This document shows positions 2,320-62,545 of a stretch of 64,000 nucleotides of DNA, one piece after another. Each line of letters opens with the position of its first letter. The first letter of the stretch is position 1. The notes beneath the pieces are model-generated. The model saw nothing but the letters and a program-made list of their open reading frames with translations, was not told the origin of the DNA and did no database searches. Source of the DNA: Tubulanus polymorphus (lineage: Eukaryota > Nemertea > Palaeonemertea > Tubulaniformes > Tubulanidae); assembly GCF_964204645.1 (NCBI RefSeq), contig NC_134027.1:24788485-24852484 (forward strand), in the 5' to 3' direction. A program made the position numbers and the translations under genes.

Positions 2320-5300
2320 TATGGTGGCTGATAAGGGCCATAGCGTAAAATTCCTGGTATGTAAATGAGGGCGCCAGAACGCCAGAACGCCAAAACGAAA
2401 AAAAACGTCCAATTTTCTCTAAAAGTTCGTTTTGGCGCGCCAAAACAAAGAAAATTCCGTTTTGGCGCCCCCGCCAAAACGAACTTTCATTTTGGCGCCC
2501 CCGCCAAAACGAACTTTCGTTTTGGCGCCCCCGCCAAAACAACGAAAAACGTCCAATTTTCTCTAAAAGTTCGTTTTGGCGCGCCAAAACAAAGAAAATT
2601 CCGTTTTGGCGCCCCCGCCAAAACGAACTTTCATTTTGGCGCCCCCGCCAAAACGAACTTTCGTTTTGGCGCCCCCGCCAAAACAACGAAAAACGTCCAA
2701 TTTTCTCTAAAAGTTCGTTTTGGCGCGCCAAAACAAAGAAAATTCCGTTTTGGCGCCCCCGCCAAAACGAACTTTCATTTTGGCGCCCCCGCCAAAACGA
2801 ACTTTCGTTTTGGCGCCCCCGCCAAAACAACGAAAAACGTCGAAATTTCTCTAAAAGTTCGTTTTGGCGCGCCAAAACGGAGAATATTCCGTTTTGGCGC
2901 CCCCGCCAAAACGAACTTTCATTTTGGCGCCCCCGCCAAAACGAACTTTCGTTTTGGCGCCCCCGCCAAAACAACGAAAAACGTCGAAATTTCTCTGAAA
3001 GTTCGTTTTGGCGCGCCAAAACAAAGAAAAGTTCGTTTTGGCGCGGTTATTTCCGTTTTGGCGCCCCCGCCAAAACAAGCATTCAACCACTGTAAAATTA
3101 TTTTTCAAATTGGCGCGTTGATCTTGTGTGTAATTTGCATAAATTTGCATAAATGAAAATATTTTACGTATATATAGAATTATTTTACGTGGTTTAAAGT
3201 TCGTATTGGCGGGGGCGCCAAAACGAAAGTTCGTTTTGGCGGGGGCGCCAAAACGGAATATTCGTTGTTTTGGCGCGCCAAAACGAACTTTCGTTTTGGC
3301 GCCCCCGCCAAAACAACGAAAAACGTCCAATTTTCTCTAAAAGTTCGTTTTGGCGCGCCAAAACAAAGAAAATTCCGTTTTGGCGCCCCCGCCAAAACGA
3401 ACTTTCATTTTGGCGCCCCCGCCAAAACGAACTTTCGTTTTGGCGCCCCCGCCAAAACAACGAAAAACGTCCAATTTTCTCTAAAAGTTCGTTTTGGCGC
3501 GCCAAAACAAAGAAAATTCCGTTTTGGCGCCCCCGCCAAAACGAACTTTCATTTTGGCGCCCCCGCCAAAACGAACTTTCGTTTTGGCGCCCCCGCCAAA
3601 ACAACGAAAAACGTCGAAATTTCTCTAAAAGTTCGTTTTGGCGCGCCAAAACGGAGAATATTCCGTTTTGGCGCCCCCGCCAAAACGAACTTTCATTTTG
3701 GCGCCCCCGCCAAAACGAACTTTCGTTTTGGCGCCCCCGCCAAAACAACGAAAAACGTCGAAATTTCTCTGAAAGTTCGTTTTGGCGCGCCAAAACAAAG
3801 AAAAGTTCGTTTTGGCGCGGTTATTTCCGTTTTGGCGCCCCCGCCAAAACAAGCATTCAACCACTGTAAAATTATTTTTCAAATTGGCGCGTTGATCTTG
3901 TGTGTAATTTGCATAAATTTGCATAAATGAAAATATTTTACGTATATATAGAATTATTTTACGTGGTTTAAAGTTCGTATTGGCGGGGGCGCCAAAACGA
4001 AAGTTCGTTTTGGCGGGGGCGCCAAAACGGAATATTCGTTGTTTTGGCGCGCCAAAACGAACTTTCAGAGAAAATTGGACGTTTTTCGTTGTTTTGGCGG
4101 GGGCGCCAAAACCAAAGTTCGTTTTGGCGGGGGCGCCAAAATGAAAGTTCGTTTTGGCGGGGGCGCCAAAACGGAATTTTCTTTGTTTTGGCGCGCCAAA
4201 ACGAACTTTTAGAGAAAATTGGACGTTTTTCGTTGTTTTGGCGGGGGCGCCAAAACCAAAGTTCGTTTTGGCGGGGGCGCCAAAATGAAAGTTCGTTTTG
4301 GCGGGGGCGCCAAAACGGAATTTTCTTTGTTTTGGCGCGCCAAAACGAACTTTTAGAGAAAATTGGACGTTTTTCGTTGTTTTGGCGGGGGCGCCAAAAC
4401 CAAAGTTCGTTTTGGCGGGGGCGCCAAAATGAAAGTTCGTTTTGGCGGGGGCGCCATAACGGAATTTTCTTTGTTTTGGCGCGCCAAAACGAACTTTTAG
4501 AGAAAATTGGACGTTTTTCGTTGTTTTGGCGGGGGCGCCAAAACCAAAGTTCGTTTTGGCGGGGGCGCCAAAATGAAAGTTCGTTTTGGCGGGGGCGCCA
4601 AAACGGAATTTTCTTTGTTTTGGCGCGCCAAAACGAACTTTTAGAGAAAATTGGACGTTTTTCGTTGTTTTGGCGGGGGCGCCAAAACGAAAGTTCGTTT
4701 TGGCGGGGGCGCCAAAATGAAAGTTCGTTTTGGCGGGGGCGCCAAAACGGAATATTCTCCGTTTTGGCGCGCCAAAACGAACTTTTAGAGAAAATTGGAC
4801 GTTTTTCGTTGTTTTGGCGGGGGCGCCAAAACGAAAGTTCGTTTTGGCGGGGGCGCCAAAATGAAAGTTCGTTTTGGCGGGGGCGCCAAAACGGAATATT
4901 CTCCGTTTTGGCGCGCCAAAACGAACTTTTAGAGAAAATTGGACGTTTTTCGTTGTTTTGGCGGGGGCGCCAAAACCAAAGTTCGTTTTGGCGGGGGCGC
5001 CAAAATGAAAGTTCGTTTTGGCGGGGGCGCCAAAACGGAATTTTCTTTGTTTTGGCGCGCCAAAACGAACTTTTAGAGAAAATTGGACGTTTTTCGTTGT
5101 TTTGGCGGGGGCGCCAAAACCAAAGTTCGTTTTGGCGGGGGCGCCAAAATGAAAGTTCGTTTTGGCGGGGGCGCCAAAACGGAATTTTCTTTGTTTTGGC
5201 GCGCCAAAACGAACTTTTAGAGAAAATTGGACGTTTTTCGTTGTTTTGGCGGGGGCGCCAAAACCAAAGTTCGTTTTGGCGGGGGCGCCAAAATGAAAGT

Positions 5301-5895
5301 TCGTTTTGGCGGGGGCGCCAAAACGGAATTTTCTTTGTTTTGGCGCGCCAAAAAGAACTTTTAGAGAAAATTGGACGTTTTTCGTTGTTTTGGCGGGGGC
5401 GCCAAAACGAAAGTTCGTTTTGGCGGGGGCGCCAAAATGAAAGTTCGTTTTGGCGGGGGCGCCAAAACGGAATATTCTCCGTTTTGGCGCGCCAAAACGA
5501 ACTTTTAGAGAAAATTGGACGTTTTTCGTTGTTTTGGCGGGGGCGCCAAAACGAAAGTTCGTTTTGGCGGGGGCGCCAAAATGAAAGTTCGTTTTGGCGG
5601 GGGCGCCAAAACGGAATATTCTCCGTTTTGGCGCGCCAAAACGAACTTTTAGAGAAAATTGGACGTTTTTCGTTGTTTTGGCGGGGGCGCCAAAACGAAA
5701 GTTCGTTTTGGCGGGGGCGCCAAAATGAAAGTTCGTTTTGGCGGGGGCGCCAAAACGGAATATTCTCCGTTTTGGCGCGCCAAAACGAACTTTTAGAGAA
5801 AATTGGACGTTTTTTTTCGTTATGGCGTTCTGGCGTTCTGGCGCCCTCATTTACATACCAGGAATTTTACGCTATGGCCCTTATCAGCCACCATA
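2320..5895. mobile_element. Giant foldback element of 144-bp palindromic units
   Basis: The two ends are near-perfect inverted repeats. About 127 bp starting TATGGTGGCTGATAAGGGCC at 2320 match the complement of the end at 5895, with one difference seen. ATATTG (2314-2319 and 5896-5901) flanks both sides as a 6-bp target duplication. Between the ends are more than 20 copies of a 144-bp unit. Each unit contains one TTTTGGCGCGCCAAAA palindrome and three TTTTGGCGGGGGCGCCAAAA near-palindromes. Units point one way in 2368-3080 and 3270-3860 and the opposite way in 3980-5820, so the element can fold into one very large hairpin. 144 is divisible by 3, so long open frames appear on both strands (up to 741 codons); they are low-complexity and not credible genes. 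No transposase is present, so it would be non-autonomous. Collapse or expansion during assembly cannot be excluded. Confidence 0.85.
3048..4054. repeat. 774-bp internal direct duplication inside the foldback element
   Basis: The only non-palindromic spacer of the element occurs twice, at about 3081-3205 and 3855-3979, exactly 774 bp apart, with the same flanking half-units. After the first spacer the array flips orientation at about 3205 and flips back near 3275. After the second it stays flipped to the right end. Unequal exchange or replication slippage between units would produce this. Confidence 0.85.
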
Positions 5896-5901
5896 ATATT
5901 G

Positions 5902-10904: not shown

Positions 10905-11165
10905 GTTGGTTCAACAGGTGTGGGTTTAATTTGAAATGGATCCAGAGTAAAATTAAACCCACACAACTGTGGATCTGGAGACAGAGACAAACTAAACCCA
11001 CACACGACTGTGGAACTGGATCCAGAGACCAACTAAACTCATACAACTGTAAAACTGGATCCAGAGACATCATACCAACAATTACTGTAATACTGAATCC
11101 AATCACATTAAACCCACAACTGTCTGTGGAACTGGATCCAGAATCAAATAAAACCCCCAAATTGA
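10905..11165. repeat. Minisatellite satB, array 1
   Basis: About six degenerate copies of a 38-42 bp unit with the phrase AACTGTGGAACTGGATCCAG. The same unit forms arrays at 16.2, 17.15 and 49.4 kb. The array lies just downstream of the Tudor gene stop codon, possibly in its 3' UTR. Confidence 0.85.
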
Positions 11166-14600: not shown

Positions 14601-17600
14601 TGAGAAATCGGCTGACTAATGTTGTGTGAAATGTGGCTGGTCATTTTTTGAAAGTATGCTGATTACTCTGGTGTCTGTGGGTAGTTCATCTTCAATCTCG
14701 GCTGAAGTACTGAACACAATTTAAGTGTTGATGATCACTTTTTGAAAGTGTGCTGATAAAATGTCTGATGTTTTTTAATCCATTTTCAACTAAAACCTGA
14801 AACGACAGGGACATTGGACATCGTTGTCTTACACGATCGATTTATGAAAGTGTGTTGATGAAATGTCTAATGTCTGGTGTTTGTAGTTTATTTTCAATTA
14901 AAAATGTCTCTAGTGAAGTTCTGAACGCATGTGAAGTGTGGCCGATTAGTTTATGAAAGTGTACTGATAAAATGTCCAATGTCTGGTGTTCGTACATTTC
15001 CAATTAAAAATGTCTCAGGTGAAGCACTGAACACATGTGAAGTGTGGACGATCAGTTTATGAAAGTGTCCTGATAAAATGTCTAATGTCTGGTGTTTGTA
15101 GTTCATTTTCAATCAAAAATGTCTCAGGTGAAGCACTGAAGACATGTGAAGTGTGGACGATTAGTTTTCGGAAGTGTGCTGATAAAATGTCTAATAGCTG
15201 GTGTTTGTAGTTCATTTCTAATTAACAACATCTCAGGTAAAGTTCTGAATATGCCCAAAGCCTGGACGATTAGAAGAATGGCGATTGAGTGCGTGGGAGC
15301 GCAGGCTACAGATTGATACCAGCACTAAACCACACATTCTGTAATCACTGATATCAATACATTTATAACATAGACAACAGTGAATCTATTTACATAATTG
15401 ATATTCCAACCACAATTCACCAGATGTAATCTTCAATATTTAACGAACTGATCATAAAATCAGGGGTAGTTATTATTATAGGTGTACATACTGAAAACAC
15501 ATTGGAATATATAGGAGAATAATATTATTCATTATTCACGAAACCCGACCGCGGCCGGGGGCAAAATCTGAGCAGCTCACCATATTTCCAGGGCATAACA
15601 GTAAAGGGCTGGTATTCTGGTATTACGGTTTTTAAAAATGTCCAGATCATATTTTCATATCGAGGATCGAGAATAAACGTTGAACAGAAATAAATTGCCC
15701 ATGGTGGTTTACCTTGAAAACGGAGCTTGTTTTTGCAAAGGGCGTTGCCTCTTTTAAAACCAGAAAAAAGTGAACTTTACAGTTACAGTTCAGAAAAGGA
15801 CAACTTGCAATATGTCGAAATTCGATATTCGATATAAAGGGCATTCGTCATTTTTAGCAATTAAGTGCGGCGTGAAGTGCGCACTTTTCGAACAAACCGA
15901 TTGATAAGTACATCGTCATCGCCGGATATTCGTTTACCTAAGCTGCTCGTTCAAAAGCGGCAGAGTCTCGTATTCTGTATAACTGCCGGCGTATCCCTCT
16001 GAAAAAAAAAAACAAGAAAAATGAGGCGATTTATAAAACACGAGACGCTATCGGAAATCGTACGTGTTGTGTTGGGGCGTTTAATTTCACTCGCTTGAAA
16101 AATGAGCATTATCGATTACCGCCGGTTTCACGGCGCGTATGTTCATTTAACTTTGACTGAGTGGATCGAGTCAAAAATAAGTACAATGAATTGACTGTAA
16201 ACTGGCTCGCCAGAACCAGTGCCACAGTTTTGTGGGTTTAATTTGACTACATGGATCCCACTCCAAAATGTTGTATGTTTTATTTTACTTTGATCCAGTT
16301 TCACAGTTGTATAGGTTCAAATTGACACTGGCTCAAGTTCCACAGTTGAGTGGATTTGAATTAAGTCAAGATCCAGTTCCACAGTTGGGTGGCTTTGATT
16401 TGACTCTGGATCCAGTTCCACAGTTGTATGGGGGTTTAATTTGACTCTGGATCCAGTTCCCCAGTTGTGAAGGTTTGATTTGACACTGGATCCAGTTCCA
16501 CAGTTGTGTGTGTTTAATCTGACTCTAGGCCCAGTTCCACAGTTGTATGGGTGCAATTTGACTCTGGATCCAGTTCCACAGTTGTATGGGTCTAATTTGA
16601 CTCTGGTTCCACTTCTGCAGTCAATTTGATTCTGGAGTCAATCACAAGCCATTGCCAACGGTGTAAGTCAATATGCTCATGGATGAAAATGAATTTATTC
16701 TAACTACATAACTGTGGAACTGGATCCTGTTGATTAGACAGAGTAGGGGTAGCGTTAACAGTCTGTGAATGGGGTTATGTAGCTTCAATAGATGTTCTGC
16801 GTCAAGGTAACTGGTATTTCTATCTAGACACATGATACTATGAGAAATCCCGACATTGACGGCAAGCACGCGCGTGACATTTAAAAACCGACGTAAAATC
16901 TCGAACTGAAGCGAAAGAATAACAAGTCGTTACAGAGAAATATGACATGTTCATTCAGAACTGACTATAATCCATCTTCATTTCCCGCGCACGGAAATAA
17001 AGATTTCGTGATGAAGTAACGTCCAATAACATCCAATTAACCGGTTTACTGACAAGTCATGAGCGGTGGATAAACAGCGTTTCATTCGATTCATATCAGA
17101 AAATATCAATCAACAAAAAAAAATAGGATACAATCGCTAACCAGTGAACCAAATAACAGTTGCACAGTTGTGTGGGTTTGATTAGACACTGGATCCAGTT
17201 CTACAGTTGAGTGGGTTTTATTTGACTCTGGATCCAGTTCTACTGTTGTGTGGGTTTGATTCGACTCTGGATCCAGTTCCACAGTTGAGTGGGTTTTATT
17301 TGACACTGGATCCAGTTCCACAGTTGTTTGGGTTTTATTTGACACTGGATCCAGTTCCACAGTTGTGTAGGTTTAATTTGACTCTAGATCCAGTTCCACA
17401 GTTGTGTAGGTTTAATTTGACACTGGATCCAGTTCCACAGTTGTGTGGGTTTTATTCGACTCTGGATCCAGTTCCACAGTTGTGTGAGATCAATTTGACT
17501 CTAAACCCAGTACCACAGTTGTGTAGGTATAATTTGTCTCTGAACCCAGTACCACACTTGTGGATTCAGTTCTATTGTTGAGTGGGTTTATTTCACTGTG

Positions 17601-38600: not shown

Positions 38601-41600
38601 TTTGATGAAAACTTCAAGTACCGACGAAAAAATAAACCAATTTCGTGTATGGACTCGGTAAAATGAATAAAAAGAGAGGTATACAGTGGGTTTTAATCTT
38701 ATCAGCTTCTACGGGCTATTCAAGTATTTACGGAGAATTTCAATATATACAATGACCCACAAGATTTGATGATTTGATGAAAGCATCAAGTACCGACTAA
38801 AAAATAAAACATTTTGAGTATGGACTCGGTAAAATGAATAAAAAGAGAGGTATACAGTAGGTTTTAATCTTATTAGCTTCTACGGGCTATTCATTTACAG
38901 AAAATTTCAATATATACAATGACCCATAAGTCGATGAAAGCATCAAGTACCGACGAAAAATTTCATATGAACCCTGTGTCCTCGCTAAAATGCTCGGCGC
39001 GTTTCACCGAAATTCTCCGAGTCTCAGCAGCTGCGCGATTTTCCACGGACGGACTGACATCCAGACGGACGGTCGACCCGAGGGGGGGAGAGAACGTAAT
39101 CTAGTATTTATGACGGAAGCGAGCAAACGTTTATATCGCCGTGTTTACAGTAATAACCAGCCGGCAAATGCCATGACTACACCGGCGAAATCACTCCAAA
39201 TTGTCAACGATTAATCGTTATTCAAACAATTCGAATTCATATAAACGCACACACGCACTCGCACGCAAACACACGTCAACGCGAATGGACGGTTAGCAAA
39301 CGAAGCATCGCCGTTATTATATAAATTACCTCTTCTATAGTGTTGATGATAATTCATCATCGGCGTGGAGCTATTTTCCACTCACCCCACCCCCATCAAG
39401 AAGGAGTTACCCCCTTTTCTATCCCGCCAGAATCAAAGCTAACCACCTTTCTATCCCACAATGGAGCTATCCACCCCTTTCGATCACACCATGGAGCTAT
39501 CCTTCCTTTCCCTTTTCTAACCCATCTTTCATGCCATATAGCTATCCCCTCTCTTTATTATCATGTAGCTATCCTATCCTATCTCTCCCACGCTATGGAA
39601 CTATCCCCCTTATTTTCTTATCATTCATTCATCATGGAACTAACCCATCTCACCCATACTACGGAGCTATCCCCTTTTTTCCATTTCACTGAGCTATCAT
39701 CTATCTACCCTGCCACGGAGCTATTCCCTTTCTCCCTTATCACGGAGCTATCCTCTCTCCCCTGCCATGAAGCTATCCCCTTCCCTCCCTTATGATGGAG
39801 CCGTACATCCTTTCATTTAACATTTCCTTCAGTCAATGGCTGATTCATCTAGTTCGACGACAAGTGAACTTATTTTGTATGAATTCAGTGGTGAAGATCA
39901 ACTATCGATACAAAAAAAATTACACAGCCACTTATCACCTGATGATTGATCGACGTTCGAAATTACCGAGAAAATGAGTCGAATTTGTCTCGATCACGTT
40001 CAAAGACACGTTATTTCGTCGTCGATCGCAACAATGGATGGGTTTCTGTATGCATAGGTATGAGGTATCCGCGACGAGGTGTCGGTCAAGGTCGGGTGGT
40101 CCGCAATAACATCCGACTCCGAGGTAAAATCGTTTTCGAATTTCAAGCGTTTTTGCGCGACGGATCCGGCCGACGACGACGACGCTTTCAAAATCGACTG
40201 CGGCCGGAGAATTCTCGACCGATCGACGGAATCCGTTTGCGCGGTCGACGGCGATTCCTCGACGACCGTTTGAGCGCCGTCTAGCGACAGCGTCGAGTTG
40301 ACGGTGCTGACGGACGGAAGACGCGAACACGATTGACGCGCGTGTCGGTCGCTCGCCGCGGTGGCGCGATCTTTCAACGATCCCGAAATCGAAGCCAGTC
40401 GTCCGCGATGCGTCCGCGCGCGACTCGTTTCGGCAGACGTCGACGCGTCGTCGTCGTCGCGATGTATACAACGCCCGAGGCACGTGACGTAAAAAAAGTC
40501 GCTGAACACGCGTCGGAATTGACCGGTGCGAAAACCGTGCATCGCCGCGTTCAACAACGACTTCGACAGAATCCACGCGAAGAAGAACAGGTAGTAGGTG
40601 TTCGCGGACGTCCGCTCGTCGGCGTAGACGCAGACGCCGCAGTGCAGGAACAAATACACGAAAAACGGCAGGTAGAACACGACGACGGCGACCATATCGG
40701 CTTGAGTCAGACGGACGACCGTCACGATGGCGCCGAAGTCGTGTCGCGTCATGTTTCGCACGATCGACGTCGTGCGCAGCTTCGCGCGAATACGCGCCGA
40801 AACGCGGTGTATCTTGACGTGCAGTAAACACGCGCCGACGAACGCCGCGCCGCAAATCGCGAAAACGACGACGAAATACGCCGTCGGGTAATAATCGAAA
40901 AATCGACACGTCAACGAAAACATGTCCGACCAGCGGTGGCCGTAACGAACGAAGTCGTAGTTCGGCGGGTATTTCACGTCGTTGTTGAAGCCCATGATCG
41001 GCACGAAGCCGACGACAAACGCCAGATTCCACGCGAGCACCAACGCCATCGCGACCAGTTTCTTGTCGATGTACGCGCGGTACGCGGTCGGAAAGACGAG
41101 CCGCGCGAAACAATCCGCGCTGAGCGCGAGCAGCGTCAACGACGACACGATCATCGACGTGAAGAAAAGGCTCTCGCCGAGGAAACAGTTGACGCCGTTC
41201 GCGCCGTACGCGCGCAACGACGCGTAGATCGGTAGCCGCGCGACGCCGTAGAAACCGGCGACCGTGTCGGCGACGCACAAGCTGCGCACGTAGATCAGCG
41301 TCGGGTCTTTGTCGCCGGCGCGCGCGAATTTCGACGCCAGCAAGATCACGGCGTTCGCCGCGATCACCATCACGCCGATTATCACGGCGAGGATCAACGC
41401 CAGAAAGTCCAAATTGTTCACGCGAAACGGCGACGGCGAATCGGCAGTCGCGGCGATTAACGGGAGACTCGTCGCCGCGAGTGACGTCGAGTTTCGCGCG
41501 CTTTTATCGACGTCGTCGAAATTCGATAGCGACAAATTTTCCGCGGCGAGCGTCGAATTTAAGAAGATCGTCGACACAATTTCAGAAGGTATGGATGTGG

Positions 41601-44600
41601 ATTGTTGAAGCGTCGAACTCGTCAAGTTCGGAAAGTATCCTGTAAGCGTGGAAGGTGTTGAACTAGTCGAATTCTGAAAGTATCCGACAAGTGTCGAAGG
41701 TGTTGAATTGGTCGAATTCTGGGGATGCGTCCGCGTCCAAGTTTGCGAACTTCTATCGTCGTTCTCATCAGCGGAGAAATACTCAGTAATATTTAACGAG
41801 GACGGTGTTGCTAGCTCGAGGCGATCGCGCGGTGACCGAGTGGAATTACGGCCGGTCGTGTGATTCGACATCGAGGAACGCTAAACGTAGTATCATCGCG
41901 CAGTCCGACGACATTGTGGGTCCGTGCGCGATCTAAAACCGGAATCGCCAGTGGTATGAAAGTGTAATCCAGTTACTATTAGCCAGTGGTATGAAAGTGT
42001 AATCCTGTTACTGTTAGCCAGTGGTGTGGAAGTGTAATCCTGTTACAAGGAGCCACTGCTATTGAAGTGTAATCCTATTACTAGTAGCCAGTGGTATGAA
42101 AGTGTAATCCTGTTACTGTTAGCCAGTGGTATGGAAGTGTAATCCTGTTACAAGGAGCCACTGCTATTGAAGTGTAATCCTATTACTAGTAGCCAGTGGT
42201 ATGAAAGTGTAATCCTGTTACTGTTAGCCAGTGGTATGGAAGTGTAATCCTGTTACTGTTAGCCAGTGGTATGAAAGTGTAATCCTGTTACTGTTAGCCA
42301 GTGGTATGAAAGTGTAATCCTGTTACTGTTAGCCAGTGGTATGAAAGTGTTATCCTGTTACTGTTAGCCAGTGGCATGGAAGTGTAATCCTGTTACTGTT
42401 AGCCAGTGGTATCGAAGTGTAATCCTGTTACTGTTAGCCAGTGGTATCGAAGTGTAATCCTGTTACTGTTAGCCAGTGGTATGGAAGTGTAATCCTGTTA
42501 CTATTAGCCAGTGGTGTGGAAGTGTAATCCTGTTACTGTTAGCCAGTGGTATGGAAGTGTAATCCTGTTACTGTTAGCCGGCGATATGAAATACAACGTG
42601 AACAATGTGTAATCCCATTATGACAACTGTTGTTCATTTGGTTGATGGAAATAAAAACACCACAGCTGAAACTCACTACAGAAAACTCAAACAGCAGCAG
42701 TAGCAGCATCAGCAGCAGCAGTAGCAGCAGCAGCAGGTGACAACAGACTGAAATTATTTAGTCCATCACGAATGTTTCCACATTCTTACACCAATTATCA
42801 GAAGAGAATTTCTGACATTTCAATCAGTCACACGTCTGTGTTTTTCACTTATTTCGCAAAATGTTTTTTGTTGAAACTATCATCGCAGCTGGTTCCCGAT
42901 GCTGCTATATCCGTTTTTGAACCGGTTCGAAACACGTCAAATTTCAAAAGTAAATTCGTACGAAATTAGTTTTTACTTCCTTTCATATTTATCCTCGTTG
43001 AGTCACAAACATAGAATTTATAACGCTGAATTCCCAAAACCGGGTAATTACGGTAAATAGTAAAACCATTGAACTATTGTAACAGTTACGTTAGAAACAC
43101 TGAACTGACTGTCGGCGTAATTACTGTAAAAACTACCTAATCACTGTAAATAGTTAGAACTGCTGAGTTAACCACCAGAAATTACTGTAAACAGTAACAA
43201 CCACTGAATTCAACGCTCGAAATTACTGTAAATAGTTACAATCACTGAATTCACCACCAGAAACTACTGCAAATAGTCACAACCACTGAATTCACTGCCA
43301 AAAAAATTACCGTAAACAATTACAACTACTGAATTCATTGTATTTAGTTCGCGTAAATATTTACAACACGACAGAACTTAAATTGCCGCAAATTCATCCG
43401 TTCACGAAAACGAACTTCCATCACAAAATTTACAAAATAACTTTAATTTTGAACCTTGGAACGTAAACACTGGCGGCGGCGACGGTTATTGTAAACGTAA
43501 ATCCGATAGATCCGACTGCTATCGACGATCGAGCACCGTAACTGCGAATGCTCGTGTGCGTTATCTCGACATGCATGAAATAATAATCAGCAGATATCGC
43601 CGGCGCTACGCGGTATGTCGCGTCGTCATCGCCGTACCGCTACCAGGTGTTGATGCATCGAACCCGCCGATATCCGCTAAAAACTAAACGGCTCTCATTA
43701 AATATTCCATTTGTCGGCGCGAACGCTTTTTTCTCTACTTTTTTTTTTTAAAGAAAAATAAATTTTTCGGCGAATTTCCGAACAGCCGGTGCGGACGGCG
43801 CGAACGAGTTCTCTAGATACGGAGTTAATTTCGTAGCAGGTGTATTTAATGTCGCCGGTCGGGTATTATTAGCCGAGTGCGCGCGTGCGTGCGCGGCACG
43901 AGTGCGACGACAATGAATTAGTAATGAGAATAACGGCGAGTTCAGATGAAATTGGCAAAACGACTCAATTAACAATTAATTAAACCGCTCGATTCGCAAT
44001 ACAAACACACCAGTTAACGCTTCATTTACCGCGGAGATCGGCGCAAACTTCGTAAATCCCCCCAATGACATCATCCAGGGTCTCTACAAAATCAGTCGTT
44101 CTCGGATATAAGGAGTTCGGAAGGAGATGATTTCGAAATGACACCGACAGAAACGTTTTTGAGGAATCGTTTACAATGTTGTTATAGAATATGATAGGGT
44201 AATTCAGGGGAGGGGGAGGCGCACTTTTATGTAAATGGGGACACCTCCATAAAATAATCATCATCTAAAGACCCTCCTACATAAGATGGCAGCTTACATT
44301 AATCTCCCAATGACATCATCAAATTGCGTAATAATTTCTTGCTCTGTAGGCCTCCTACCTAAGATGGCAACTTTATAATTATCCCAATGACATCATTTAT
44401 TAATTTGGATCCTACTAAAATAATGATGGTTGCTTCAATTATTATTCCCCCAATGACATCATCAAATTGTGTAGTAATTGTTTGATCTATAGACCGTCTG
44501 ATGCAAGATTCCTCACAAGACATAATTCCCCCAATGACATCATCAAATTGTGTAGTAATTGTTTGATCTATAGACCGTCTGATGCAAGATTCCTCACAAG

Positions 44601-47600: not shown

Positions 47601-50600
47601 ATGAAAACATTTCGATTCGGTTCGAACAACGCGACACTCAACGGCTCGTGAACGATCGCGTCCTCGCCGGCGCCATCTTCCATCAACTGCATTAACAAAC
47701 AATCGTTATAACCGGTCAACGCTTCGAATTTCGCGACAGCGTCCGACGACCACTGCCCGGGCGCGGCGGTCGACGGCCGCACGTCCGACAGTCGACAGCG
47801 CACGGCCTGCGGCGACAAACGTAAAAACGCCGGACTCAACGGGAAAACGCGTTTCAGCGGCAGAGTCTCGCGATTGCCGTAATCGACGTAAAAAACATCG
47901 ACGCGCGACCGATCTACGTCGATCGCCTCGACGACCGCGCGGTAGAACCCCTCGTCCAATGCGTACCACGCGCAGCAGACATCGCCGACGCCCGGCGCGT
48001 AGTCGGCCATGAATCGACCCATCATGTTCTCAACGTAGCGTTTGTAATATTTGTTGAGTTCTCGCTCGAGACGCGTCAGAACATGCGACGTATCCTTCTC
48101 GACGAGGTGTACGTAGAACTCCGACGGGTCGTAGATAAACGCCATCATTACCTGCGTCGCCGAATCACGCGCCAACGCCAGGTCTCGTTTTTCCAGATTC
48201 GCGAATCGCGCGCCGATTCGTACGATCTGGGTATCCTCGGCTGCGATGACGGGATTCGGGGCATCTTCGCTCGGAGTTTCGTCCGTTTCTCGCGTGTCGT
48301 TCATCGACGATTCTTTCGTCGTCAACATCATGTCGATCGTTCCGCCGAAGCTGCTTAAACTCATCGCGTCGTCTGCGCCGGACAGGTGATCGTTCTCGTC
48401 GACAGCAGCAGACGGACAAGATTTATTGACAGCGGATGAACTGGCAGACGGACCAGATTTGTTGAAAGCAGACAGATTAGTTTCATTGAAAGCAGACGGA
48501 CTGGTTTCGTTGACAGCAGACGGACTGGTTTCGTCGACAGCAGACGTCTGTCCGTTCACGTCAACTGCAGACGGCTCCATCATGTCCGTGATTGTATCGA
48601 CGCTCGTGTCGAAATCCCCGTTAAAGTAGGCCCGAATTTCCGTATTCGAAGCTCGACGTGCCAAACCGTGCTGCACCAACACGTCGGCGATGCGTACGCG
48701 CGTGCCACTTCGATCGGTCGAGAACAGATCCAAGAAGATCGCGTGGCAGTTTTCGATCGTCGACAGCGTCGCTTGCAGAAATCGATCGGGGTCGTTGACG
48801 ATCGTGTGAACTAGGAATAAACTCGCAGGTGTCCAGTCTCCTTCATCGGCGGGTAGGGCCTGAAAATTTAAGAGGTAAACGAACATGTTCGAAATTATCA
48901 TTTTTTGAGGTGACTAAGACAAAACAAAAATTTGCTTACTTAAAGACCATCATTTCAAGTCATTTTTCATCATTATTCAAAATTATTGCATTCCATACAA
49001 TATTTTGACTTTCCAGCTGGAACCTCGTATGGGGGGGGGGGGTAATTAGCAAAGTACTTGCACTAATAGCGATTGTAGGATCATGAGCCATGAAAAATGA
49101 AGTTTTTACAGGGCAGGCACTTTTATTTGACTTTTCCCCGACTATTCCCTGACATGTTGTTTTGAGTTAACTCTGAGTTAAAATTAGTTCATTTCCAATG
49201 AGTTAACTCCGAGTCAAATCTTAATTCACAACTGTTGAACTGGAGCCAGGAGATACTTTTTTTAACACTTACACCGTCAAGAACGCAGAAGAACGCCTGA
49301 CATGGCAACGATGCGAACTGAGATTCTAACGGACGCAGACGACTGCTGGGAATACGTTCGCTATTACCGAAATCGACGTACAATACGTCTGCTTCCAACT
49401 GACCTTTCTCTGTAAAACAAGGTGATAACAAAATATTATCACAAACACATAATCATACAGCTAAGGAACTATGATTCAGAATCAAATTTAACCCACAAAA
49501 CTGTGGATCTGGATCCAGAGTCAAATTAAACCCACACAACTGCGGAACAGGATCCAGAGTAAAATAAAAACCCACAGAACTGTGGAACTGGATCCAGAGT
49601 CAACTGAACCCATACAACTGCGGAACTATGATTCAGAATCAAATTAAACTCACAAAACTGATGAACTGGATCCAGTCAAATTCAACCCACAAAACTGCGG
49701 AACAGGATCCAGAGTCAAATAAAAACCCACACAACTGTGGAACTGGACCCATAGTCAAATAAAACTTACACAACTGTGGAACTAGATCCAGAGTCAAATA
49801 AAAACCCACACAACTGTGGAACTGGACCCATAGTCAAATAAAACCCACACAACTGTGGAACTAGATCCAGAGTCAAATTTAACCAGCACAACTGTGGAAC
49901 TGGATCCAGAGTCAAATGAAACACTCATAACTGTAGAACTGGATACAAAGTCAAAATCTAACTGATAAAATTGTGGAACTGGCTGCAGAATAAAATCATT
50001 CCCACAAATGAAAATTTACCTTCCACAACGTTTTCAACTCGTGCCCGATACCAAGCGTTGTCGGCAGTGAAACATCCACTCACAACCATACCAACCTTCG
50101 GTGGAAATGGTAAACCTCCTTTGGCACCTATTTTCCCGTAGTGGTAACTGAAAATAAAATCATTTTATTAAATTTCTAAACATTTTTTAGGAATATTTTT
50201 CCATATCATGGATTTCAGGAATGTGACCGAACTTGCTAACTATGAAAGGTTTTACTATTTAGGAGTTTTTAACGAATCGAGGAGTCACAGGGACTACGTG
50301 ACTACGTACCACATAGCCTCCTGTAACTTAGTCACTTTCAATTCGTCGGCTTGAATCCAGAACGACGACAACGTGTGCAGTATCGTAATCTTCACGTTAA
50401 TCAGAGTGCCGTGAGTAAAACTGAGATTCTGAATCACCGGTCCGAGTCCGTAACTTTCCGCCGACAACGGAACCGACGACGCCTGGCTCGACGCTCCGCC
50501 GCTGCTGCACCGACTCGTGCCCGGTTTTTTTCGACGGCTTTTCGGCGCGGGCGGGTACCGCGGTCTCGTCGGCACGGCGGAGATTTTGTTTTCATCCTGG

Positions 50601-61159: not shown

Positions 61160-61585
61160 TTCCTATCGATCGTAGATTAAGAGTCTTATGAGTTTGGAAG
61201 GAATCTGGTTGCTGAAACATAGATTGTAATAAGTCGTAATGGAACAAGTAAAATTAGTAATATGTTGGTAGAAGTAACGACAAGATTTGAAGAAAGCATC
61301 AAGATTATTCGGTGCAGCTTTTGGAATGTTATAAAAACAAGCATGTGACAAATCAACGAAAGGTATAACCAATATATTATATTTCCTTTTCCAGAATCTA
61401 TGTATTGAATAATCTATTAATTGATGATATCGAATTACTCGATATTTGATATTTGAAGACTCGATCGTTACATGTGTGTTAAGTTACAAATTAGCGATTG
61501 AATTACATTCGATGAGTTAACTCCAGGAGTCAATTTGTCGACATTAGGCTGATGTAGACAATCAATACTTCAAACGCGTTTCAAG
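61160..61585. other. Intergenic, nothing recognised
   Basis: AT-rich gap between the lectin gene and the next GPCR. The minus-strand frame 61163-61372 vaguely resembles a LINE C-terminus but not enough to call. Confidence 0.4.
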
Positions 61586-62545
61586 ATGAACGATTCAGCT
61601 ATCGGTAGCTATGGGGCGACTTTCTACGCGTCGATCGTGGTCAACGCGCCTCGCGTGACCAGTCCGGCCATTCGTCGATTCCAGACGATCTTTATACCGG
61701 TGATCATTGTACCGGGCGTATTCGGTAACATCGCCAGTTTTCTTGTGATGACAAGTCGAAAGTTTCGCGTTTCCTCTTGCTCGCAGTACCTGGCCGCGCT
61801 GGCCGTATTCGATACTTTCACGTTGGTCGTATATTCGCTCCCGTTTATAAACCAGGCCTTCTACCCGTACAGTTTAGTGACTTTTGAAAACAGTTTGTCC
61901 TGTAAGATCTATGAATATTTATCTTCCATAAACGACGCCGCCAGTTCGTGGATGGTAGTGATTCTTACCATGGAACGTTTGGTGATAGTGGTTTGGCCGT
62001 TTGCAGCTAGAACGGTGGCCACTCCGGCGTTTTCCAGAAAAGTCATTCTAATCATGTCAATATTTTGGAGCGTGTCGTGCATATACATATTCATAGCTAC
62101 CAAATTCGATATTAATCTGCAAAGTTGCGTGATGACTTCATTTTGGTATAACATATACTTCAGCGTTAGTCCCGTAACCATAGTCTATATTCCAACCGTT
62201 TCAGTTCTTATATGCAACGCATTGTTGATCATCTTACTTCGTCGAAGTAACGGATTCGGTCAGTCGTCGGGTAAATCAGCTTCGGCCACGAAAGCGACGG
62301 TCATGGTGCTGATGGTATCGCTTCTGTTTACTGTGTGCACCTTGCCGAACACCGTGTTCGCGTTCATACTGCCGTACGTAAGTTTGAGCCCGCAAACGGT
62401 GATCGATATTTCGTCGATCACCAGCGCCATCTACGGCATGAACAGCGCGATCAATTTTTACGTATATCTGCTCTCCGGGGACGAAGTTCGTAACTTCGTC
62501 GTTCTTCGTCTGAAATGTGGCCGAATTCCCAAGTCTACTACATAA
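61586..62545 (+). CDS. Class A peptide-type GPCR, single exon
   Basis: 319 codons from ATG to TAA, the compact length usual for such receptors. Seven membrane segments at about 34-56, 67-90, 104-134, 152-171, 192-218, 236-260 and 273-295. G-N48 in TM1, D76 in TM2, and the C106-C181 disulfide pair are present. DRY reads E130-R-L. TM6 has C251-T-L-P254. TM7 has NSAINFYVY instead of NPxxY, followed by SGDEVRNF for helix 8. This N-S-x-x-N-F-Y pattern is common in the expanded, FMRFamide/TRH-like orphan receptors of lophotrochozoans; the ligand cannot be told. The C-terminal tail is very short and holds C311, a possible palmitoylation site. No introns; it lies head-to-tail with the lectin gene. 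Confidence 0.92.
   Translation: MNDSAIGSYGATFYASIVVNAPRVTSPAIRRFQTIFIPVIIVPGVFGNIASFLVMTSRKFRVSSCSQYLAALAVFDTFTLVVYSLPFINQAFYPYSLVTFENSLSCKIYEYLSSINDAASSWMVVILTMERLVIVVWPFAARTVATPAFSRKVILIMSIFWSVSCIYIFIATKFDINLQSCVMTSFWYNIYFSVSPVTIVYIPTVSVLICNALLIILLRRSNGFGQSSGKSASATKATVMVLMVSLLFTVCTLPNTVFAFILPYVSLSPQTVIDISSITSAIYGMNSAINFYVYLLSGDEVRNFVVLRLKCGRIPKSTT

Follow-up and report, generated by a model that had tools for sequence, protein, structure and literature searches.

A foldback element with dyad arrays in Tubulanus polymorphus: very probably a non-autonomous IS3EU/GingerRoot-type DNA transposon carrying putative docking sites

Why should an element of 3,576 bp, its ends inverted copies of each other, be filled with apparent binding sites for a host transcription factor? 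TTTSGCGCS is the E2F/DP consensus, and E2F/DP is present in animals. The window, that is, the whole 64,000-nucleotide stretch of Tubulanus polymorphus DNA that was analysed, carries at positions 2320–5895 an element in which 111 matches to TTTSGCGCS were counted on both strands. In 200 first-order Markov resamplings the count averaged 2.7 and never exceeded 8, and the remaining 60,424 bases of the window held 2 matches. TTTSGCGGG occurred 62 times in the same element. The initial annotation had estimated about five consensus sites per unit and of the order of 100 in the element, and had suggested a comparison with shuffled sequence; the estimate was borne out, and the matches far exceed chance.

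The anatomy of the element was also as first described, with near-perfect inverted ends, an ATATTG duplication, and more than 20 units of 144 bp. The outermost 73 bp from position 2320 are exactly complementary to the end at 5895, and the arms (2320–3044 and 5171–5895) showed 97% complementarity across 725 nt, with the 6-bp ATATTG on either flank. The 144-bp arrays amounted to 4.6 + 3.8 + 12.8 copies by TRF (about 21 units), and script matching found 20 whole units. Two features had escaped the initial annotation. Inside the element lies a direct duplication of 791 bp, which explains the alternation of arrays in both orientations. A 120-bp middle module is present twice, 774 bp apart; this module was also found in other short copies (e.g., L020, L017, and L011), whereas L009, the 9.9-kb copy, gave no match to it. 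The features, in window coordinates, are as follows.

2314–2319, no strand: left target-site duplication (TSD), ATATTG
5896–5901, no strand: right target-site duplication, ATATTG
2320–5895, no strand: complete non-autonomous element of 3,576 bp, belonging to family 1 of what is almost certainly an IS3EU-type transposon
2320–2392, plus strand: left outer terminal inverted repeat (TIR), exact over 73 bp, starting TATGGTGGCTGAT
5823–5895, minus strand: right outer terminal inverted repeat
2388–3044, plus strand: 144-bp array, 4.6 copies (TRF), with GTTTTGGCG dyads at spacers 0 and CCCC
3276–3818, plus strand: 144-bp array, 3.8 copies (TRF), within the duplicated segment
3970–5814, minus strand: inverted 144-bp array, 12.8 copies (TRF)
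2502–3292, plus strand: 791-bp direct duplication, copy 1, perfect
3276–4066, plus strand: 791-bp direct duplication, copy 2, 0 mismatches to copy 1
3076–3195, plus strand: middle module without arrays, copy 1
3850–3969, plus strand: middle module, copy 2, inside the zero-mismatch duplication

Other sequences were noted elsewhere in the window. Minisatellites whose 38–40-bp units are centred on GGATCC (CAGTTCCACAGTTGTGTGGGTTTAATTTGACTCTGGATC or the complementary sequence) lie at 10933–11160, 16212–16615, 17157–17562, and 49465–49955, and these may also be part of transposon ends. Long frames at 40000–41880 and 61553–62545 resemble seven-helix receptor genes, as judged by eye.

Genome-wide searches, which covered the 268-Mb eukaryotic genome, revealed that the end of the element is not unique. 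At least 35 identical ends were found for its outer 127 bp, and the terminal 20-mer, when as many as 3 mismatches were allowed, was present at 717 + 712 places (1,429 in total), compared with 5 + 5 = 10 for the reversed control; this count spans two families, since the termini of the second differ by only 2 bases. The TATGGTGG...CCACCATA termini (TA..TA) were present in all 21 excised family-1 copies. Among 24 simple end pairs, 19 were flanked by a perfect 6-bp duplication, and when lengths of 3 to 10 were checked, 6 was the sole perfect repeat length in each of the 19. The initial proposal of a foldback transposon was right, and the 6-bp duplication noted there is one that recurs in these pairs. 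The other five pairs were without a 6-bp TSD: three (C5:10061784, C5:10339071, and C6:10715857) lie within, or abut, further ends or clusters, one (C5:10039312) has flanks that are mutually reverse complementary, and one (C1:26354947) is solitary. The pair with complementary flanks (L014, C5:10039312–10040355) sits inside a multi-copy cluster, and its outer flanks, CGGTGTTT and AAACACCG, may reflect an inverted duplication at the insertion site.

An empty site lacking one ATATTG, which the initial annotation had named as a check, was not found for the window copy when its joined flanks were searched in the genome, because the joined flank matches its own locus only. An equivalent was obtained at L018, where one copy is nested in the end of an older copy: joining its flanks over one CAAAAC restored the older end (89% over 195 alignment columns, gaps included). 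As a separate observation, the same transposon fragment was found three times at steps of about 23 kb (G000:C12:6502737, 6525770, and 6548867; L035–L037), a spacing that suggests tandem segmental duplication.

Long two-ended copies of 9,888 (L009), 9,165, 8,831, 8,593, and 8,229 bp share these ends. In L009, which has the TSD AATATG, terminal arrays of 8.0 units on one side and 9.2 on the other enclose a 7-kb middle, and the whole middle gave five genome matches at a listed 100% identity, L009 itself counted. The left gene of L009 is a spliced transposase with nine exons and GT-AG introns. Its model of 374 amino acids, without the first coding exon, matched the Pfam integrase core rva_4 with an E value of 7.3e-40, and its catalytic residues, chosen by motif, are D-57-D-36-E. 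The nine exons were free of internal stops in four of six copies (L009, L028, L029, and L031), and those of L030 and L032 contained one internal stop each. Helix-turn-helix (HTH) matches of the family-1 transposase were below the Pfam cut-offs (HTH_33, E = 0.032; HTH_21, E = 0.14), and the relative L047 showed a clear HTH_21 (E = 5.2e-10). In IS3EU/GingerRoot no HHCC zinc domain precedes the integrase core; no zinc-domain Pfam match was seen in the 374-residue L009 model, which lacks the first exon, and a PDB sequence search gave 0 matches at E values up to 0.1.

The L047 transposase is an intronless rva_4 protein of 395 translated amino acids with the residues D-58-D-40-E. Just before it, at L047:779–1142, lie repeats with CAAGTCG/CGACTTG motifs in pairs of about 250 bp; they were considered as a third case of dyad arrays and rejected, as they belong to a widespread short inverted-repeat family.

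The right gene of L009 is a 632-residue frame (L009:5219–7117, minus strand) opposite in direction to the transposase, and it matched the HECT domain over the C-terminal part only (E = 7.9e-9). The frame was whole in L009 and in all five of five further copies, and it was broken or shorter in L033, L034, and L038, of which L034 may be cut by the stretch examined. A SAM-like segment before the HECT frame was weak (E = 0.055, under the cut-off) and is not claimed.

IS3EU elements have TA..TA termini and usually 6-bp TSDs, and they have been joined with GingerRoot, according to one published account (PMC10045372). TA..TA termini, a 6-bp TSD, and an integrase-like DDE transposase were all found here, the window copy being tied to the DDE transposase only via the shared ends. 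Thus, by its anatomy and its relatives, window 2320–5895 is a non-autonomous, internally duplicated copy of a cut-and-paste DNA transposon, and its assignment to the IS3EU/GingerRoot type is close to certain. Judging from the shared ends and TSD, the most likely agent of the window copy's mobilisation is the integrase-core transposase that the 8–10-kb relatives encode. The Tubulanus elements resemble IS3EU/GingerRoot in termini, TSD length, integrase-core DDE transposase, and animal host, and they differ from the available description of that group in adding foldback dyad arrays, a nine-exon transposase gene, and a HECT-domain gene (PMC10045372).

The 144-bp units themselves are arrays of dyads, each consisting of two inverted 9-bp half-sites, GTTTTGGCG, with a spacer of 0 or 4 bp. 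Exact GTTTTGGCG..CGCCAAAAC pairs numbered 496 at spacer 0 and 689 at spacer 4 genome-wide, compared with 23 at spacers of 1–3 bp (22 of them at 3) and 3 at spacers of 5–12 bp (reversed control, 21). Spacers of 0 or 4 bp accounted for 1,185 of the 1,211 family-1 dyads with spacers of 0–12 bp in the genome; the dyad copies are related by amplification, and these counts are of non-independent events. Among 39 distinct units, variation per site was 0.030 in half-sites versus 0.076 in spacers, a non-significant difference (p = 0.06 and 0.13). About 1,200 dyads stand against about 1,400 termini in the genome. The short copies vary widely in length, from 233 to 3,576 bp, and dyads are scarce or missing in many of them, with 1 of 21 family-1 copies having none; a long array was therefore not needed for past mobility. 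No arrays were found in the stretch examined of the older copy L038/L044.

A sister family (family 2, represented by L049 and L050) was compared with family 1. The transposase blocks of the two families are 40–67% identical by tblastn and up to 69% identical in the genome search, and the family-2 termini, TATGGTGGCTGATTCGGGCC, differ from those of family 1 at 2 of 20 bases. With a 23-mer and up to 1 mismatch, family-2 termini alone were found at 165 + 165 places genome-wide (control, 0). Family 2 also carries a HECT frame (L049:5899–6180, minus strand), which matched the C-terminal part of the domain with an E value of 1.1e-13. Its arrays again consist of inverted 9-bp half-sites, and the spacer was 4 bp in 17 of 17 dyads (9+4+9). 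The half-site, however, is GTTTTTGCG, with T at one switched position in 64 of 64 cases from two ends, whereas the 21 two-ended copies of family 1 carried G there in all but three of 1,001 half-sites (998 G, 2 T, 1 A), by a count that permits variation at the switched position alone. The older copy L046 had T in 1 of 13 half-sites. The change is present in both orientations and is family-wide.

A stretch of 53 bp is alike at 81% between the L009 and L049 arrays, and on this alignment part of the array is older than the split between the families. The uniform half-site of family 2 could come in part from array growth out of one 53-bp seed that had already changed, in which case the family-wide switch would be a single event.

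The E2F-like motif did not follow the shared architecture. Two family-2 arrays (688 and 609 bp) contained 0 TTTSGCGCS, 0 TTTSSCGC, and 0 TTTSGCGGG; the chance expectation for TTTSGCGCS or TTTSSCGC in these arrays is only about 1 to 2.5, so the zeros mean no enrichment and not depletion. Consensus sites kept across relatives, as expected of an E2F/DP-bound group, were not seen (111 in the window copy versus 0 in the two family-2 arrays). As far as these sequences go, enrichment of the E2F consensus is confined to one family, while the array architecture is common to both.

The design has partial counterparts among known foldback elements, here compared on the available portions of the cited papers. 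Long TIRs, internal tandem repeats, and a middle domain place the window element in the foldback structural class. Most foldback elements have been assigned to Mutator (PMC4079207); the 8–10-bp TSD of Mutator-type foldbacks was not observed, the length here being 6 bp. Tetris, FB, TU, and Tm1 are like the window element in their outer domain, TIR tandem repeats, and middle domain, and Tetris and other foldbacks include rearranged non-autonomous copies with repeats able to spread, but Tetris has 8–10-bp TSDs and repeats of about 220 bp, in contrast to the 6-bp TSD and integrase-core relatives of the window element (PMC4079207). Galileo, a foldback-like element of the P superfamily in Drosophila, encodes a P-type transposase with a THAP domain; the footprint of this domain covers +63 to +80, near the end, and two additional sites for it fall within the TIR repeats, beyond a conserved terminus of roughly 40 bp (PMC3688188). 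Like the Tubulanus element, Galileo has long TIRs with internal tandem repeats, and its repeats hold extra transposase binding sites; its terminus is conserved between subfamilies while the binding sites differ, which can be compared with families 1 and 2 (PMC3688188). It differs in its P-type THAP transposase, its few sites versus scores of dyads, and its unrelated sequence (PMC3688188). The oyster satellites CgiSat35 and CgiSat47, labelled DNA/IS3EU, tie tandem repeats to IS3EU in another invertebrate, but their units are 690 bp and 129 bp, and the available text describes no dyad arrays for them (PMC8268682).

The initial statement that no family with this design had been described therefore held in part. 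Foldbacks whose TIRs contain tandem repeats have been reported (Tetris and Galileo; PMC4079207 and PMC3688188), but in the open-licence part of PubMed Central the exact combination of two-spacing dyad arrays, a family-wide half-site switch, and a HECT-carrying IS3EU element was not found, nor was a paper linking IS3EU with HECT. Comparable elements may be listed in Repbase without comment.

Inverted half-sites at fixed spacings, at both ends, with a family-specific half-site and near-constant termini, form the pattern expected of docking sites for an element-encoded dimeric protein. We consider that the locus as a whole is probably best explained as an IS3EU-type non-autonomous copy whose dyad arrays are putative docking sites. 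By analogy with Galileo, the dyads would rather probably be repeated sites at which a DNA-binding protein encoded by the transposon itself docks in many copies; that the HTH region of the transposase is the actual dyad binder has slightly less than an even chance. In the proposed mechanism, a dimeric transposon-encoded protein, most likely through the HTH region of the transposase, would dock on the repeated dyads, and the loading of many protein copies per end would provide end specificity and synapsis. Cleavage and strand transfer would take place at the terminal 20-odd bp, which are nearly constant between the families, and unequal exchange and duplication in the tandem repeats would give rise to the foldback shape and the variable array number. 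Weighing against this explanation are the sub-threshold HTH matches of family 1, the non-significant difference between half-sites and spacers, the possible growth of the family-2 array from one altered seed, the scarcity of dyads in many short copies, and the five end pairs that lack a 6-bp TSD.

The arrays could instead lack any binding role and be minisatellites, selfish or neutral, that expanded within the TIR via slippage and unequal exchange. The perfect internal duplication of the window copy, the very variable length of the short copies, the absence of a significant excess of half-site conservation over spacers, and the many further minisatellites in the window all fit such growth, and since the copies are non-independent, tandem amplification alone could yield both the spacing bias and the half-site switch. 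Set against this are the concentration of dyads genome-wide at spacers 0 and 4, with the odd cases at 1–3 nearly all a 3-base run, and a half-site switch that is family-wide and in both orientations. We regard this by-product reading as unlikely.

Far less probable is that the arrays have been retained for binding host E2F/DP, thereby titrating it, which the initial annotation had listed among several options, or timing transposon activity to S phase. The count of 111 consensus matches versus 2.7 expected and the 62 TTTSGCGGG do speak for it, and TTTTTGCGC was judged against E2F by consensus alone. However, family 2 has near-identical termini and the dyad plan of family 1, and two of its arrays contained none of the consensus forms tested, the switched base sits where the E2F consensus allows only C or G, and the termini, TSD, transposase, and spacing rule require no host factor. 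E2F titration was therefore rejected as the main reading, on account of family 2. A replication or chromatin element, with the G+C-rich palindromes serving as an origin or a boundary or forming structures, would suit the long inverted repeats and CpG-rich palindromes, but nothing specific to it was found, and every long copy of the transposon has these arrays in its two arms, where they track transposon ends; we give it very little credence. Misassembly of the palindrome or duplication, conceivable in view of the perfect 791-bp duplication and the difficulty of assembling long inverted repeats, is extremely improbable, as the same ends and arrays recur at numerous loci that differ in flanks and TSDs, and the window copy's internal duplication is the most that could be artefactual.

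Returning to the docking reading, one extension of it is offered tentatively, as it is more doubtful than the docking itself. In this dyad-recognised lineage, the transposase and hundreds of half-sites would have switched specificity jointly, from G to T at position 6, when the sister families separated, with dyad spacings confined to 0 or 4 bp, with the families kept from cross-mobilising, and with a HECT protein in both that is possibly regulatory.

These results recast what looked like a store of about 100 E2F sites as a testable case of co-evolution between a transposase and its sites, and they illustrate that consensus matches inside repeats can mimic host regulatory sites. They also link a HECT-domain gene to IS3EU-type elements in two families. 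With two sister families in one genome that have near-identical termini and half-sites one base apart, exchange of protein and DNA between them could reveal a change in recognition code, and the half-site switch, if the joint change is true, would record how a protein and its DNA sites co-evolved naturally within a single genome.
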